A DNA stretch of 36,418 nucleotides from an uncultured Oscillospiraceae bacterium (lineage in GTDB: Bacteria > Bacillota > Clostridia > Oscillospirales > Oscillospiraceae), in the NCBI GenBank assembly GCA_904420435.1, contig CAJFVK010000008.1, positions 1 to 36,418 of the forward strand, written 5' to 3'. Under the pieces are notes generated by a model, which was given only the letters and a program-made list of their open reading frames with translations, searched no databases and was not told where the DNA came from. Shown here piece by piece: positions 29,740-36,418 of this stretch. Made by a program: the position numbers and the translations under genes. The stretch's first letter is position 1, and every line of letters starts with the position of its first letter.

Positions 29740-30432
29740 TTATTGTGCCCGGAACCGGTACCCCGCGCCCCACACGGTCTGGATGTAGCGCGGATGTCCG
29801 GGGTCCCGCTCCAGCTTTTCCCGGAGCCGGTTGATATGGACGGCAACCGTGGCGTTGTCCCCCATGGCCTCCAGCCCCCAAACCTTCTCATACAGATCCT
29901 CCCGGCTGAACACCATGTCCAGGTGGAGCATGAGGAAGAGGAGCAGCTCGTACTCTTTATTTTTTAAACTGACCTCCCGCTCCCCTACATAGACCCGGTG
30001 GGTCTGGGTATTCAGGCGGATCTCGCCCACCTGGAGCTCGGACCTGGGCTTTCCCGCGGCGCCGGTCAGCCGCTGGTAGCGGGCCAGGTGGGCGCCGACC
30101 CGGGCCACCAGCACGCTGGGGAAGAAGGGCTTTTCAATGTAGTCGTCCGCACCCAGGCCCAGGCTGCGGATCTTGTCGATGTCCTCCCGGCGGGCGGTTA
30201 CCATCAGGATGGGGATGTCGATCTCCTCCCGGAGCTGGCGGCAGACGGCGAAGCCATCCGCCCCGGGCAGCATCAGGTCCAGCAGGATCAGGTCAAATTC
30301 CCCGCTGCGTCCGCGGGTGAGGCCGGTTATGCCATCCGCGGCGATCTCCACCTGATACCCGTTCAGCTCCAGATAATCCCGCTCAATGGACGCGATGTCC
30401 CCGTCGTCTTCCACAATCAGAATCTTCTGCAT
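29740..30432 (-). CDS. OmpR-family response regulator without adjacent histidine kinase
   Basis: 230 aa; MQKILIVEDD, LILLDLMLPG, ILMVTARRED, IEKPFFPSVL, C-terminal winged helix (VWGAGYRFR). Confidence 0.94.
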   Translation of the reverse strand: MQKILIVEDDGDIASIERDYLELNGYQVEIAADGITGLTRGRSGEFDLILLDLMLPGADGFAVCRQLREEIDIPILMVTARREDIDKIRSLGLGADDYIEKPFFPSVLVARVGAHLARYQRLTGAAGKPRSELQVGEIRLNTQTHRVYVGEREVSLKNKEYELLLFLMLHLDMVFSREDLYEKVWGLEAMGDNATVAVHINRLREKLERDPGHPRYIQTVWGAGYRFRAQ

Positions 30433-30840
30433 GGGGTCAGCCTCCCTCCGTCACATCATCCCGGCGATCAACCCGCCGGCGGACCGGCTGCGCGCAGAAC
30501 TGCCCGTTCCTATTCTGCGCCGCCTTGGCCGCGATTGCAAGAGCCAATCCACTGCTTCCCGCCGGATTTTGGCGGGCCGCTCCGGGAAAACATGCCGGAC
30601 GGCCTGATGGGGATTTTCTCCGGCGCGCGGGGCCTTCTCCAACCGCCCTATATCATACCATGGATCGACGGGGAAAACTTAAACAGAAGATAAACTCCGC
30701 TGGAAAAAGGCCGGCTTCACAAAAGCCTGCCAGTTTTCTCACATTTTTCTCACACCTTGGCCTTATGGTATTGCTGCCATCAAACAGGAATTTGATGCAA
30801 GGGAAAAGAAATTGATTTGATACAGAAAGGATTATGTTTT

Positions 30841-31596
30841 ATGAAGCGAATTGCCTCGGCCTTCCTTACCCTCAGCCTGGCGCTGACTCTGACCGCCTGC
30901 GGCGGGGCGGGGAACGATAACACATCCTCTTTCGCGCCGGATACGCCGCCCGCACAGGGACAGGAGGAGCAGACGCCCACTGCGCCAGAGAATGGAGGCT
31001 CGCCCGCCGGCAGTGATCCCTCCGAATCCACCGACGACGCCTCATCCTCAGGAAGCAACATTCTGATCGCCTATTTCGGCGTCCCGGAAACGGATGGGAC
31101 CGATACGGTGGCAGGCGCCAGCCGGGTGGCCACGGAGGACGGCGTGGTGGGCAATACGGAGTTTATTGCCCAGGCCATCCAGCAGGCGGTGGGCGGAGAC
31201 CTCTTCGCCATCGAAACCGTTCAGGAATATCCCGGTACCCACGATGAACTGCTGGACTTTGCCTACAACGAGCTGCGTCAGGACGCCCGCCCCGAGCTGG
31301 CCGCGGAAATTGAGAACCTGGATCAGTACGACGTGATCTTCCTGGGTTATCCCAACTGGAACGCCGACCTGCCCATGCCCCTGTACACCTTCCTGGAGTC
31401 CTACGATTTCGCGGGCAAGACCATCGTCCCCTTCGTCACCCACGGCGGCAGCGGCTTCTCCCGCACCATCTCCACCATCCAGTCCCTCCAGCCGGATGCC
31501 ACGGTGCTGGAGGACGGCCTGTCCATTCCCCGTGGCAATGTGGTGGATGCCGCCCAGGAGGCCATGGACTGGGCCGCCGGCCTGAATCTCGCCTGA
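30841..31596 (+). CDS. Lipoprotein flavodoxin
   Basis: From ATG 30841; lipobox LTLTAC; Ser/Thr/Pro-rich linker; NILIAYFGVPETDG..VVGNTEFIAQAIQ..GGDLFAIETVQEYP...FLGYPNWNADLPMPLYTFLESYDFAGKTIVPFVTHGGSGFSRT. Confidence 0.9.
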   Translation: MKRIASAFLTLSLALTLTACGGAGNDNTSSFAPDTPPAQGQEEQTPTAPENGGSPAGSDPSESTDDASSSGSNILIAYFGVPETDGTDTVAGASRVATEDGVVGNTEFIAQAIQQAVGGDLFAIETVQEYPGTHDELLDFAYNELRQDARPELAAEIENLDQYDVIFLGYPNWNADLPMPLYTFLESYDFAGKTIVPFVTHGGSGFSRTISTIQSLQPDATVLEDGLSIPRGNVVDAAQEAMDWAAGLNLA

Positions 31597-31624
31597 GAGA
31601 GTCCTGAGAGGAGCGGGATCTGTC

Positions 31625-32317
31625 ATGAACAAAAGTATGCGGCTTAAACTGGCCGCTGACGTCGGAATGACGATTCTCCTGCTTGCCCTGATGGCCTACC
31701 AGCTCACGGGAAACTTTGTCCATGAGTGGGCAGGGGCGGCCATGTTCCTCCTGTTTATCGCCCACCACATCCTCAACCGCCGATGGTTCGCAAGCCTAGG
31801 AAAGGGGAGGTGGAGCCCTCTGCGGATCCTCCAAGCCGCTGTCGATTTTCTCCTGCTGGCGTCCATGCTGGGCCTGATGGTCAGCGCCGTGATCCTCTCC
31901 CGGTATGTGTTCTCCTTCCTGCCGATCACCGGCGGAGCGGCCATGGCCCGGCGCCTCCATCTGCTCTGTTCCTACTGGGGATTTGTGCTGATGAGCCTGC
32001 ACCTGGGACTCCACTGGGGGATGGTGGTGGGCATGGTCCGCAAGGCCCTTAGGCTGCCTGCCTCAAAAGTCCGTGCCACAGCCCTGCGAGTCGTGGCGGG
32101 CGGGATCGCCCTCTACGGGGCCTATTGCTTCCTCTTCCGGTATCAGCTGTGGCTCTACCTGTTCCGGCAGGCGGAGTTCGTCCTCTTCGACGCCTTCGGC
32201 CGCCCGGCCATCCTGTTCTATGTGGATCACGTGGCCATGATGGGGGCGTTCGTCCTGCTGTCCTACGGGCTCACCCGGCTTTTGCAGGCGAGAAAGCGGG
32301 GAGGCGCCAGCGTATGA
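31625..32317 (+). CDS. DUF4405-like / cytochrome b-like membrane protein
   Basis: 230 aa, about 6 TM; His in putative helices: FVHEWAGAAMFLLFIAHHILNRRWF and RRLHLLCSYWGFVLMSLHLGLHWG. Confidence 0.75.
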   Translation: MNKSMRLKLAADVGMTILLLALMAYQLTGNFVHEWAGAAMFLLFIAHHILNRRWFASLGKGRWSPLRILQAAVDFLLLASMLGLMVSAVILSRYVFSFLPITGGAAMARRLHLLCSYWGFVLMSLHLGLHWGMVVGMVRKALRLPASKVRATALRVVAGGIALYGAYCFLFRYQLWLYLFRQAEFVLFDAFGRPAILFYVDHVAMMGAFVLLSYGLTRLLQARKRGGASV

Positions 32318-34170
32318 AACAGTGGGCTTGCGGCGTCCTGGCCGCAGCACTCCTGCTGGGGACCTCCGGTTGTGCCCAGACCCCGTCGGAGGATCCCGTC
32401 CAGGAAACGCCGGCGGAGGCCACCGCCGGGCTCTTCGTCATGGATACCTACATTGAACTGACCGCCTACGGAGCCGAGGCGGATGTGGCCCTGGAGGCCG
32501 CCCAGGCCCGCATCCTGGAGCTGGAGGGACTGTGGTCCGTCACCGATCCGAGCAGCGACATCTACGCCGTCAACCACAGCGGCGGCGCGGCCACCCAGGT
32601 CAGCGAAGACACCGCCGAGATCCTCTCCTTTGCTCTAAAGATGGCCGGGGAAACTGGCGGCGCCCTGGACCCCACCCTCTACCCGGTGCTGACCGCCTGG
32701 GGCTTTACCACCGACCGATACCAGATCCCGGACGCGGAAACCCTGTCCGCCCTGCTGGAGAACACCGGATATGAGAAGGTAAGTTTAGACGGGCAGACCG
32801 TGGCGCTTCCGGCGGGGATGGAGCTGGATTTGGGCGCGGTAGGGAAGGGCTACGCCGCCGATGAAACGGCCCAGGTCCTGGTCAGCTACGGCGTGGAGTC
32901 CGCCCTGCTGGCCTTGGGCGGCAACGTCCTGGCCTTGGGCAGCCGTCCCGACGGGACTCCATGGTGGATCGGCGTCCGGGACCCCGACACCGACGGAACC
33001 CTGGGCGTCCTGGAGGTTACGAACCAGAGCGTGGTGGTTTCCGGCGGCTATGAGCGGTACTTCGTGGGGGAGGACGGGCAGCGGTACTGGCACATTTTGG
33101 ACCCGGAAACCGGCGCCCCCGCCCGGAGCGGTCTGACCCAGGTTGCCATCGTCAGCCAGGAGAGCAAGCTGTGCGACGCCCTCTCCACCGCCGTGTTCGT
33201 CATGGGGCTGGAGGCGGCCACCGATCTCTGGCGGGCGCGGCAGAATTTTGAGATGGTGCTGTTGGCCGACGACGGCACGGTCTATCTCACAGAGGGCCTG
33301 GCCGAACGCTTCACGCTGAACGCCGGGCAGGAGGAACGGGAGGTGCAGATCCTTGCCGCGGCGGATCCGGCAGGCGGCACCCACGCCATCGACCCCGCGG
33401 GCGGATATGAGGTGGAGACGGAGGAGGTGTTCGCAGAAAACCAGGGGGACAGGATCTACGGCCTGCTCTACCGTCCCGCGGGAATCGAGGGACCCCGGCC
33501 CACGGTGATCTACACCCACGGCTTCGGCAGCTCCTACCGCAACGGTACTCCATACGCCCAGGCCCTGGCCGCCCAGGGGTACCTGGTGTACTGCTTCGAC
33601 TTCCGGGGCGGCAGCGAGTCCAGCCGCAGCGAGGGTTCCAACCTGGAGATGTCGGTTTTTACCGAGCAGTCCGATCTGGAGGCGGTGATCGCCATGCTGC
33701 AGGCCCGGGACGATGTGGACGACAGCAATCTGTTTCTCCTGGGGGCCAGTCAGGGCGGCATGGTGTCCGCCATGACGGCTGCGGACAACCGGGATGACAT
33801 TGCGGGAGCCGTTCTGCTCTATCCGGCGTTCGTTCTGGTAGATGGTGCTATGGAGCAATTTGACAGCATCGATGAGGTGCCGGACTCCACGTATTACCTG
33901 TTTATGACCGTGGGCCGGGCCTATTTTGAGGGCCTGTTCGGCTACGACGTCTATGCGGACATCCAGGGCTACAACAAGGATGTCCTGATCATCCACGGCG
34001 ACCGGGACGGCCTGGTGCCGCTCTCCTATTCCGAGCGCGCGGTGGAGGTGCTGCCCTCGGCGGAGCTGGCCGTCATTCCCGGCGCCGGGCATGGCTTTTC
34101 CGGCGACAGCCTTGATCTGGCTGTGGGGTACATCACGGAATACCTGGGTTCTCACCTGAACGCCGGCTGA
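32314..34170 (+). CDS. Lipoprotein fusion: ApbE-type FAD:protein FMN transferase + alpha/beta hydrolase
   Basis: From ATG 32314; lipobox LLGTSGC; ApbE motifs VMDTYIELTAYG, LDLGAVGKGYAADE, ALGGNVLALG, HILDPETGAPA, LCDALSTAVFVMG; C-terminal hydrolase motifs THGFGSSYRNG, LLGASQGGM, HGDRDGLVP, GAGHGFSG. Confidence 0.9.
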   Translation: MKQWACGVLAAALLLGTSGCAQTPSEDPVQETPAEATAGLFVMDTYIELTAYGAEADVALEAAQARILELEGLWSVTDPSSDIYAVNHSGGAATQVSEDTAEILSFALKMAGETGGALDPTLYPVLTAWGFTTDRYQIPDAETLSALLENTGYEKVSLDGQTVALPAGMELDLGAVGKGYAADETAQVLVSYGVESALLALGGNVLALGSRPDGTPWWIGVRDPDTDGTLGVLEVTNQSVVVSGGYERYFVGEDGQRYWHILDPETGAPARSGLTQVAIVSQESKLCDALSTAVFVMGLEAATDLWRARQNFEMVLLADDGTVYLTEGLAERFTLNAGQEEREVQILAAADPAGGTHAIDPAGGYEVETEEVFAENQGDRIYGLLYRPAGIEGPRPTVIYTHGFGSSYRNGTPYAQALAAQGYLVYCFDFRGGSESSRSEGSNLEMSVFTEQSDLEAVIAMLQARDDVDDSNLFLLGASQGGMVSAMTAADNRDDIAGAVLLYPAFVLVDGAMEQFDSIDEVPDSTYYLFMTVGRAYFEGLFGYDVYADIQGYNKDVLIIHGDRDGLVPLSYSERAVEVLPSAELAVIPGAGHGFSGDSLDLAVGYITEYLGSHLNAG

Positions 34171-34266
34171 GCCGAGCGCATCACCGCTGCCGTCGTGAGA
34201 GCGTGTCGCCCATGGGGAGATGAGCTCCCCACCTGGCAGGCGGCTTGATCTCCCAGCGCGCAGAAG

Positions 34267-34301
34267 CCCGCGCCGCCAAGCACGGTGCGGGCTTTTCCTG
34301 T
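34267..34301 (+). terminator. Intrinsic terminator after the ApbE-hydrolase gene
   Basis: AGCCCGC-loop-GCGGGCT then TTTCC. Confidence 0.65.
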
Positions 34302-34336
34302 AATCACTGTTTTTATGTAGAAAGGATGGGATCATT

Positions 34337-34894
34337 TTGAAACGAAAAATTGCACTTGTACTCGCTGTCCTTGCGGCCGCCGGCCTGCTCTCTGCCTGCG
34401 GCGCTCAAGCTGCTTCACCCTCTTCTCCAGCCATTTCCTCCGACCAGATTTTAGTGGCTTATTTCTCCAACAGCGGAAATACTGAGGAGGTGGCCCAGCT
34501 GATCGCGGAGCGGACCGGTGGGACTTTGGCTGAGATCCAGCGGGCTGTCCCCTATGACGACCTCCAGGCTGAGGCGGAGGAGGAGATCAACGCGGGCGCG
34601 CGTCCGGAGATCACGGTGGATGTGGAGGATATCAGCGATTATGAGATGATCTTTGTGGGCTATCCCATCTGGTGGGACGAGGCCCCGGCCATGATCTCCA
34701 CCTTTCTGGCCTCCTTCGATTTTGACGGGAAAACCATCGTGCCCTTCTGCACCAGCGCCAGCGACGACATCGACAACAGCCTGCACATTTTTATCGAGCT
34801 GTGTCCCGGCACCACCATCGCCGAGGGGCTGACCGCCAATGATTTGGACGACGTTGAGCCCTGGCTGGATACGCTTGGCGTATTGGCCGATTAA
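34337..34894 (+). CDS. Lipoprotein flavodoxin (second)
   Basis: 185 aa, TTG start; lipobox LLSAC; ILVAYFSNSGNTEEVAQLIAERTGG, FVGYPIWWDEAPAMISTFL, KTIVPFCTSASDDIDNS. Confidence 0.92.
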   Translation: MKRKIALVLAVLAAAGLLSACGAQAASPSSPAISSDQILVAYFSNSGNTEEVAQLIAERTGGTLAEIQRAVPYDDLQAEAEEEINAGARPEITVDVEDISDYEMIFVGYPIWWDEAPAMISTFLASFDFDGKTIVPFCTSASDDIDNSLHIFIELCPGTTIAEGLTANDLDDVEPWLDTLGVLAD

Positions 34895-35023
34895 AAGGAA
34901 GCGCCGAGGCTGCGGCGGGCGACTCCCGGTATGGCTCCGCCCCCGCTGGGGGCGCCTGAATCGGAAACAGTTTCAAAATCGTTGAACTTCTGTTTATCTC
35001 CTGTTTAACAGCGGGGGGTAAAC

Positions 35024-35593
35024 TCAATACCTGACCACGCTGGACATCCCCTCGCAGATCAGCCTGGTGGCCAGCTGGATGACCTCTTCCAGCGAGAGCC
35101 GCTTGCCGTCCGCCACCCACTGGCGGTAGAGAATGGCCGTGATGCTGCCGTAGTAGGCAAAGATGATATTTTCGGAAGCCTCATCCAGGCCAAAGGCTCC
35201 CCGGTTCATCAGCTTCCGGTATCCCATTACCTGCTGGTTGATGCGGTCGTAGAGAAACTGATAGCTTCCGCTGCACAGCAGCCGGTCCTGGAGGGGAGAC
35301 TGCTCGGCCATATACTCGAAGAACACCCGGATCATCCGCCGGATATCCGCCATCTTCGAGTAAGACACCTGCTTTTCAATGATCTCCCCGGCGATCTCGT
35401 CCTGGAGCTCCCGGAGCAGCGCCTCGATGGAGTCGTAGTGCAGATAAAAGGTATTTCGGTTGATCATGGCCCGCTGGGTCAGTTCCTTGATGGTGATGTC
35501 CGGATAGTCCATCTCCATGATCATGGCACAGAAGGCGTCCCGGATCGCCTTCCGGGTGCGGATCACCCGCAGATCGGTCTTTTTTGGTTCCAT
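35024..35593 (-). CDS. TetR/AcrR-family transcriptional regulator
   Basis: From ATG 35593; RTRKAIRDAFCAMIMEMDYPDITIKELTQRAMINRNTFYLHYDSIEALL HTH; ligand domain follows. Confidence 0.9.
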   Translation of the reverse strand: MEPKKTDLRVIRTRKAIRDAFCAMIMEMDYPDITIKELTQRAMINRNTFYLHYDSIEALLRELQDEIAGEIIEKQVSYSKMADIRRMIRVFFEYMAEQSPLQDRLLCSGSYQFLYDRINQQVMGYRKLMNRGAFGLDEASENIIFAYYGSITAILYRQWVADGKRLSLEEVIQLATRLICEGMSSVVRY

Positions 35594-35680
35594 CGGAGCA
35601 GCCTCCCTGAATTTTTTGTGACTTCCTGGGCGTTTTGTGAAGAAATGCCGCATATTGGGCAAAGCGGGCCCAGCCTCCCA

Positions 35681-35710
35681 TTGATTTTTGTTTTGCCCCT
35701 GCACTATGAT
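35681..35710 (+). promoter_or_regulatory. Candidate promoter of the cytosolic flavodoxin gene
   Basis: TTGATT-N18-TATGAT; -10 overlaps the dyad TGCAC-TATGAT-GTGCA (35700-35715). Confidence 0.5.
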
Positions 35711-35742
35711 GTGCACAAGCCTAATAAAAAGCGCGAGATTAT

Positions 35743-35755
35743 TATATGGCATATA
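35743..35755. promoter_or_regulatory. Palindrome in the tetR-flavodoxin divergent intergenic region (candidate operator)
   Basis: TATATG-G-CATATA. Confidence 0.4.
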
Positions 35756-35788
35756 TGAGGGTACGTCAAGCAGGGAGCGTGAAGAACA

Positions 35789-36280
35789 ATGGGCAAGAAA
35801 CTGATCGTCTATTATTCCATGGACGGAAATACCAGGCAAATTGCGGAGCGCATCCAGGCAGAAACCGGCATTCCCCTGATCCGGCTGGACACGGTGGAGC
35901 CCTATACGGGAACGGATGAGGAGATCATCGCCCAGGGACAGGACGAGGTAAACCGGGGCTTCCGCCCGGAACTAAAGCCCCTGGGCTTTGATCCGGAGGA
36001 GTATGACACGTTTCTGGTGGGGACGCCCACCTGGTGGTACACCATGGCCTCCCCCGTCCTCAGCTTTCTTCATCTGGTGGACTGGAAAGGAAAAATCCTG
36101 GTCCCGTTCCAGACCCACGCCGGCTGGCCGGGACACTGCCTGGAGGACATGGAGCGGGCCTGTCCGGGCGCGGAGGTCCGGTATCCCAAGAAGATCCAGT
36201 TCAGCCCCCAGCAGTTTGGGAAGCTGGTGACGCCCCAGAGTGAAGTGGAGTCATGGATTGCGGCGCTGAAAACATGGTAA
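35789..36280 (+). CDS. Cytosolic flavodoxin
   Basis: 163 aa; KLIVYYSMDGNTRQIAERIQAETG, FLVGTPTWWYTMASPVLSFL, KILVPFQTHAGWPGHC. Confidence 0.9.
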   Translation: MGKKLIVYYSMDGNTRQIAERIQAETGIPLIRLDTVEPYTGTDEEIIAQGQDEVNRGFRPELKPLGFDPEEYDTFLVGTPTWWYTMASPVLSFLHLVDWKGKILVPFQTHAGWPGHCLEDMERACPGAEVRYPKKIQFSPQQFGKLVTPQSEVESWIAALKTW

Positions 36281-36362
36281 GAGGTGCTGCGGCGGACACA
36301 GCAGGCTGGCGGAGAGCATCAGCGCCAACCGGCAAATTGCATCTTTGAAGGAGGTTTTTATC

Positions 36363-36418
36363 ATGAACGAGTTTGTCTATACCTATCCTACCGCCGTCTA
36401 CTTTGGCGAGGGCGCGGC
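36363..36418 (+). CDS. N-terminus of an iron-containing alcohol dehydrogenase (truncated by window)
   Basis: MNEFVYTYPTAVYFGEGA, typical N-terminus of Fe-ADH family; AAGGAGG upstream. Confidence 0.65.
   Translation, partial: MNEFVYTYPTAVYFGEGA

Follow-up and report, generated by a model that had tools for sequence, protein, structure and literature searches.

The window analysed here is the whole contig CAJFVK010000008.1 (36,418 bp) from the 2.4-Mb, 92.7% complete genome of an uncultured Oscillospiraceae bacterium. Close to its end lies an operon of three genes that encode a lipoprotein flavodoxin (F1), a DUF4405 membrane protein, and a lipoprotein in which the flavin mononucleotide (FMN) transferase ApbE is fused to a hydrolase. 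We consider it quite probable that this core operon belongs to a type of extracytosolic electron transfer system, described in 2024, that relies on ApbE and DUF4405; here, ApbE would flavinylate F1 and DUF4405 would pass electrons outward. The assignment draws on gene order, domains, lipoboxes, the flavinylation-like motif, conserved histidines, predicted folds, and conservation in relatives. Apart from the ApbE-esterase fusion, which is a new structural variation, the locus is an ordinary member of the described system.

Huang, Meheust, Barquera, and Light (2024, mSystems; PMC11334425) reported clusters of apbE, DUF4405, and Flavodoxin_4 genes in Firmicutes, including an Oscillospiraceae bacterium, and the claim of an earlier note on this DNA that no described system had such a composition is therefore wrong. 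In that study, DUF4405 was often co-located with apbE in Firmicutes and Proteobacteria, frequently together with a flavinylated Flavodoxin_4. The beta1-alpha1 insertion of Flavodoxin_4 was found to carry the ApbE flavinylation site, flavinylation was confirmed for two Flavodoxin_4 proteins and depended on the predicted Ser/Thr, and heme b was demonstrated in the DUF4405 protein of an Oscillospiraceae bacterium. The window shares the three parts, the bacterial group, the insert, and a six-helix DUF4405 with central histidines. It differs in three respects: an esterase-like hydrolase is joined to its ApbE, the operon is adjoined by a further lipoprotein flavodoxin, which lacks a motif, and no flavin transporter gene was seen beside it. 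The main text of PMC11334425 is silent on hydrolases, esterases, and lipoproteins, and Meheust et al. (2021) do not mention DUF4405, esterases, or hydrolases.

The three genes are closely packed as a single operon (30841-34170), with a gap of 28 bp between F1 and DUF4405 and an ATGA stop/start overlap at the junction of DUF4405 and the fusion gene. The fusion (32314-34170, plus strand) is one open frame with the lipobox TSGC, an ApbE domain (approximately residues 42-335; E 1e-82), and an alpha/beta hydrolase domain (approximately 375-610; Hydrolase_4/Abhydrolase_1, E about 1e-20). The ApbE half aligns across its length to solved FMN transferases, including the histidine of HILDP, which we take to be the equivalent of Vibrio cholerae His257. 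The hydrolase half aligns with S33 hydrolases and cinnamoyl/chlorogenic acid esterases and retains the catalytic residues, namely the GASQGG nucleophile elbow, the aspartate of HGDRD, and the histidine of GAGH. It has the fold and catalytic motif of cinnamoyl, chlorogenic, and ferulic acid esterases (3pf8, 10bv, 7z2u) and of S33 hydrolases (7wwh); unlike these, it is joined to ApbE and, as its lipobox predicts, exported. This joining of ApbE to an S33/cinnamoyl-esterase-like hydrolase is the new element of the locus. In a scan of the genome collection, Candidatus Intestinimonas pullistercoris (L118) proved to have a homologue that spans the full length of the fusion at 80% identity, and an assembly artefact was rejected on account of this independent copy. 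Fragments of the fusion with broken frames also occur in a Lawsonibacter metagenome-assembled genome (MAG), where the contig region L121:3671-6337 contains a hydrolase, two F1-type flavodoxin fragments, an ApbE fragment, and an F2-like piece, apparently a decayed or misassembled copy of the window locus.

F1 (30841-31596, plus strand) has the lipobox LTAC, a Flavodoxin_4 domain (E 8.5e-22), and a match above the cut-off to NCBIfam NF005389. Besides the flavodoxin core, it contains the sequence IAYFGVPETDGTDTVAGASRVATEDGVVGNTEF between beta1 and alpha1. In the AlphaFold model, this insert is flanked by strand 74-78 and helix 105-117, and the model confidence (pLDDT) is mostly above 90 in the core and lower in the insert. 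The solved folds nearest to the model are 4ici, 4j8p, and 3klb, the last of which served as a comparator in PMC11334425. Within the insert, the flavinylation-like motif DTVAGAS keeps the Asp, the Ala, and the acceptor Ser, and has Ala instead of S/T at the first position of the consensus [S/T]GA[S/T]. Because of this deviation, the strict FMN_bind-type DNA motif pattern had no match in the window. In the alignment, the inserts of relatives carry DAVSGAT, DASSGAS, DAVSSAS, DAVSSAT, DATTSAS, DAVASPS, and, in the Intestinimonas relative, DTVANAS.

To relate motif and export, we surveyed the flavodoxins of the retrieved loci (81 distinct, untruncated sequences), with export assigned by simple sequence rules. 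Of those with the motif, 18 carry a lipobox and 4 are unclear, with no cytosolic protein among them; insert and motif could be aligned in the 18 lipoproteins and in no cytosolic protein. Without the motif, 21 are exported (15 lipoproteins, 4 with SLH domains, and 2 with other signals), 33 are cytosolic, and 5 are unclear. The difference (18/0 versus 21/33 exported/cytosolic) gave a Fisher p of 2.6e-6, which is only a guide because the export rules are simple and the sequences are related, with phylogeny uncorrected. Two conclusions emerge: the motif accompanies export, and export does not depend on the motif. The second lipoprotein flavodoxin of the window, F2 (34337-34894, plus strand; TTG start, lipobox LSAC, Flavodoxin_4 E 1.7e-32), falls in the exported class without motif, having no flavinylation motif and an SNSGNT loop in place of the insert. 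About half of the exported flavodoxins surveyed lack the motif. At least for this bacterial family, this qualifies the statement in PMC11334425 that signs of flavinylation are seen in extracytosolic flavodoxins. Motif-less lipoprotein flavodoxins also adjoin DUF4405 at L096:3744-4523, L101:6718-7449, L030:1426-2142, L117:6249-7019, and other loci. Another variant was observed in Ruminococcus sp. RGIG4067 (L120:5962-7827), where a secreted protein of 621 aa with three Flavodoxin_4 domains is sited between DUF4405 and apbE; two of its domains carry flavinylation-like motifs (DASASAS and DANTSAS), and its N-terminus appears dockerin-like by eye, with no Pfam match there.

The DUF4405 protein (31625-32317, plus strand; Pfam E 2.7e-13, above the cut-off) has six long helices in its predicted structure (mean pLDDT 90). 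Across 29 homologues, H47, H126, and H130 are invariant, and H33, H48, and H112 are at least 90% conserved, the pattern to be expected for bis-His heme; the protein is a predicted heme b cytochrome. It is sporadic, occurring in 34 of 300 genomes of the bacterial family. The source genome harbors a second DUF4405 gene on contig C28 (L034:1341-3890), beside another lipoprotein flavodoxin without the motif.

The earlier note had called for a survey of gene neighbourhoods, and the linkage was borne out by it. The Intestinimonas relative has the same order of F1, DUF4405, and ApbE/hydrolase with 78-80% identity, and F1-type flavodoxins, DUF4405, and a stand-alone ApbE occur together in a Ruminococcus MAG. 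A Flavodoxin_4 gene lies within 3 kb of DUF4405 in 30 of 37 loci; within the same distance, a lipoprotein Flavodoxin_4 was found in 20 loci, a motif-bearing one in 11, and a motif-less lipoprotein one in 10. The recurring three-gene order and the co-occurrence of DUF4405 with Flavodoxin_4 indicate that the linkage is not due to chance. The same note had proposed one system of seven genes within 30841-36418. All seven are present, located with the open reading frame list and Pfam/NCBIfam profile searches, although the iron-containing alcohol dehydrogenase only as its start. The conserved core nevertheless comprises three genes. Downstream of the Intestinimonas fusion there are an FMN-reductase remnant and the start of an SLH protein, and no F2, TetR, or F3; the seven-gene system was rejected, as this sister cluster retains only F1, DUF4405, and ApbE/hydrolase.

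Two known systems are also related to the operon. Listeria-type flavin-based extracellular electron transfer (Ndh2, PplA, FmnB) likewise uses a lipoprotein ApbE-type transferase and a lipid-anchored flavinylated carrier, flavinylation being predicted for the window; in contrast, the window carrier is a flavodoxin rather than FMN_bind, the membrane carrier is DUF4405, and no menaquinone genes were found. MenD and MqnA/D were not found in the 92.7% complete source genome, and its FMN_bind genes are two only, on contigs C38 and C93. Rnf and Nqr, with RnfG or NqrC, likewise hold ApbE-dependent covalent FMN outside the membrane, as predicted for the window, whereas the window operon has no rnf/nqr genes; the rnf genes of the genome lie elsewhere, on contig C93, and have an apbE of their own. 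This second apbE adjoins rnfC, rnfD, and an FMN_bind gene and probably serves Rnf, which would leave the window ApbE free for F1. From position 29740 to the contig end, no open reading frame encodes a flavin transporter. Such a gene is frequent, though not obligatory, in DUF4405/ApbE/Flavodoxin_4 clusters.

In the proposed working, by analogy with the flavinylated Flavodoxin_4 and heme-bearing DUF4405 homologues, the lipid-anchored ApbE would attach FMN outside the cell to the Ser of the F1 insert, so that the flavin could not diffuse away. Electrons from a donor inside the cell would cross the membrane by way of the heme b of DUF4405 and reach F1, and F1 would in turn reduce an acceptor outside. 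We infer the outward direction, the donor, the acceptor, and the esterase role; a soluble flavoprotein or ferredoxin may supply the electrons, and menaquinol is a less likely donor because MenD and MqnA/D were not found in the 92.7% complete genome. The fused hydrolase would be an outward-facing esterase in the same pathway. The electron path suggested in the earlier note, in which a b-type cytochrome takes electrons across the membrane to flavoproteins that are lipid-anchored and served by a flavinyltransferase, is supported by homology to an experimentally studied system, by the F1 insert, and by the DUF4405 histidines; F2 has no flavinylation motif. Several observations weigh against assigning the operon to this class. 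The F1 motif AGAS, and NAS in the relative, departs from the strict consensus. With Foldseek, DUF4405 had no significant counterpart in the PDB (best E 0.75), and cytochrome b561 came up only among the weak matches. DUF4405 seldom has an apbE neighbour in the family sample; over the 37 loci, apbE lies within 3 kb in 3, a biased count since 2 of them were found through the ApbE query. Finally, heme, flavin, redox activity, and localisation are predictions for the window proteins.

The role of the hydrolase as a linked surface esterase would be the most interesting reading of the fusion. We tentatively suggest, with a low probability, that the fusion marks a surface pathway of hydrolysis followed by reduction. 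A compound open to reduction, such as a hydroxycinnamate held in a dietary ester, would be released by an exported esterase and then reduced outside the cell by the DUF4405-flavodoxin chain. In gut Oscillospiraceae, this pathway would be one among several recurrent groupings of exported esterases and flavodoxins, which would even include S-layer-anchored flavodoxin-aldo/keto reductase fusions. A rival reading, with a chance a little short of even, is that the hydrolase is unlinked to electron transfer and the fusion is a chance gene join in one lineage that merely anchors an esterase to the membrane. The fusion is known from two complete cases and one broken contig; among 300 family genomes, no match across both halves was found beyond the source genome; and stand-alone homologues of the hydrolase are mostly distant from DUF4405 and flavodoxin genes. 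However, the 80% identical homologue keeps the fusion whole and its catalytic residues in place, a stand-alone lipoprotein homologue lies 2 kb from DUF4405 in genome G184, and unrelated exported esterases recur beside DUF4405, with an esterase/hydrolase gene, of three different groups in all, within 3 kb of it in 11 of 37 loci. For one group, EST12, 6 of the approximately 16 genomes that have it show the gene no more than about 1.3 kb from DUF4405 (compared by hand), far above chance placement. Exported esterases of at least two groups, EST12 and a CE1 esterase with BD-FAE, directly adjoin DUF4405 at L091:8493-9386, L095:8103-9014, L082:6030-7979, and L082:8656-9471.

An unlikely alternative is that F1 and F2, as ordinary exported flavodoxins, hold their FMN non-covalently, that ApbE acts on another substrate, and that the cluster is a general stress/detoxification neighbourhood of flavodoxins, aldo/keto reductases, iron-containing alcohol dehydrogenase, and carboxymuconolactone decarboxylase that gained DUF4405 and apbE. 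The departure of the F1 motif from the strict consensus fits it, as do the many motif-less lipoprotein flavodoxins beside DUF4405 and the reshuffled neighbourhoods rich in genes for these three enzymes. Against it, the D, A/P, and S/T positions of the insert are kept in the 18 lipoproteins, with the insert absent from cytosolic members; F1, DUF4405, and ApbE remain together in the Intestinimonas relative and Ruminococcus; and the insert-bearing Flavodoxin_4 proteins of A. xylanovorans and D. lacus are flavinylated (PMC11334425). An inward flow, with the flavodoxin collecting electrons outside and DUF4405 carrying them to the cytosol, is highly improbable, since characterised ApbE-dependent respiratory reductases or extracellular electron transfer run outward (PMC8238504), although direction is not fixed by sequence.

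Upstream of F1 by approximately 90 bp, an 11-bp tandem direct repeat (TTTTCTCACAtTTTTCTCACA, 30734-30754) was detected. The repeat TTTTCTCACA is kept in the same position in the Intestinimonas cluster, where the flanks have diverged, and its spacing suits OmpR-family response regulators, making it a candidate binding site. Only one other genomic site was found within 3 mismatches, and the reversed control pattern gave 0. That site (G000:C20:10925-10945) precedes a lipoprotein gene with PGA_cap and Peptidase_M15, and no regulon could therefore be drawn. An OmpR-family response regulator (29740-30432, minus strand; Pfam Response_reg and Trans_reg_C) is divergent from F1; the next gene on its strand is an EamA transporter, and no histidine kinase is beside it. 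In Intestinimonas, a response regulator and a histidine kinase are directly upstream of the cluster.

The remaining four genes, beginning with F2 166 bp after the fusion, look like a separate module with its own divergent promoter region. The TetR-family regulator (35027-35593, minus strand) was weakly matched by TetR_N (E 2.4e-5; 24.5 bits, narrowly above the 24-bit cut-off) and is divergent from F3 (35789-36280, plus strand), a cytosolic Flavodoxin_4 without signal peptide (E 3.9e-18). On the TetR side, a -35/-10-like sequence, TTGACG-17-TATAAT, lies at 35769-35741 on the minus strand. The contig stops within the next gene (36363-36418, plus strand), whose 18 codons (MNEFVYTYPTAVYFGEGA) are plausibly the start of an iron-containing alcohol dehydrogenase.

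Other recurrent neighbours of DUF4405 are aldo/keto reductases, iron-containing alcohol dehydrogenases, carboxymuconolactone decarboxylases, FMN reductases, and LysR/TetR-type regulators, labelled from similarity clusters and by eye except where Pfam was run. At L151:2886-5153 and L152:7423-9627, one-chain surface proteins combine three SLH domains, Flavodoxin_4, and an aldo/keto reductase, apparently as an extracellular flavodoxin-aldo/keto reductase fusion, and adjoin SLH- or lipid-anchored esterases and a lipoprotein flavodoxin. A lipoprotein aldo/keto reductase with intact catalytic residues (L105:1838-2872, minus strand) lies near DUF4405 and a lipoprotein hydrolase; its export is odd because NADPH is not expected outside. 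The aldo/keto reductase cofactor motif reads IPGS...HI, as against IPKS...RI; the idea that this marks enzymes that no longer use NADPH once exported was rejected, as cytosolic copies share it.

With the fusion, a class of extracytosolic electron transfer that was described only recently gains a natural joining of ApbE and a hydrolase, and the many motif-less exported flavodoxins beside DUF4405 fall outside the reach of the generalisation made for it in 2024 (PMC11334425). Together with the recurrent neighbouring esterases, the fusion may be a clue to the acceptor chemistry of the DUF4405-flavodoxin systems of gut clostridia.

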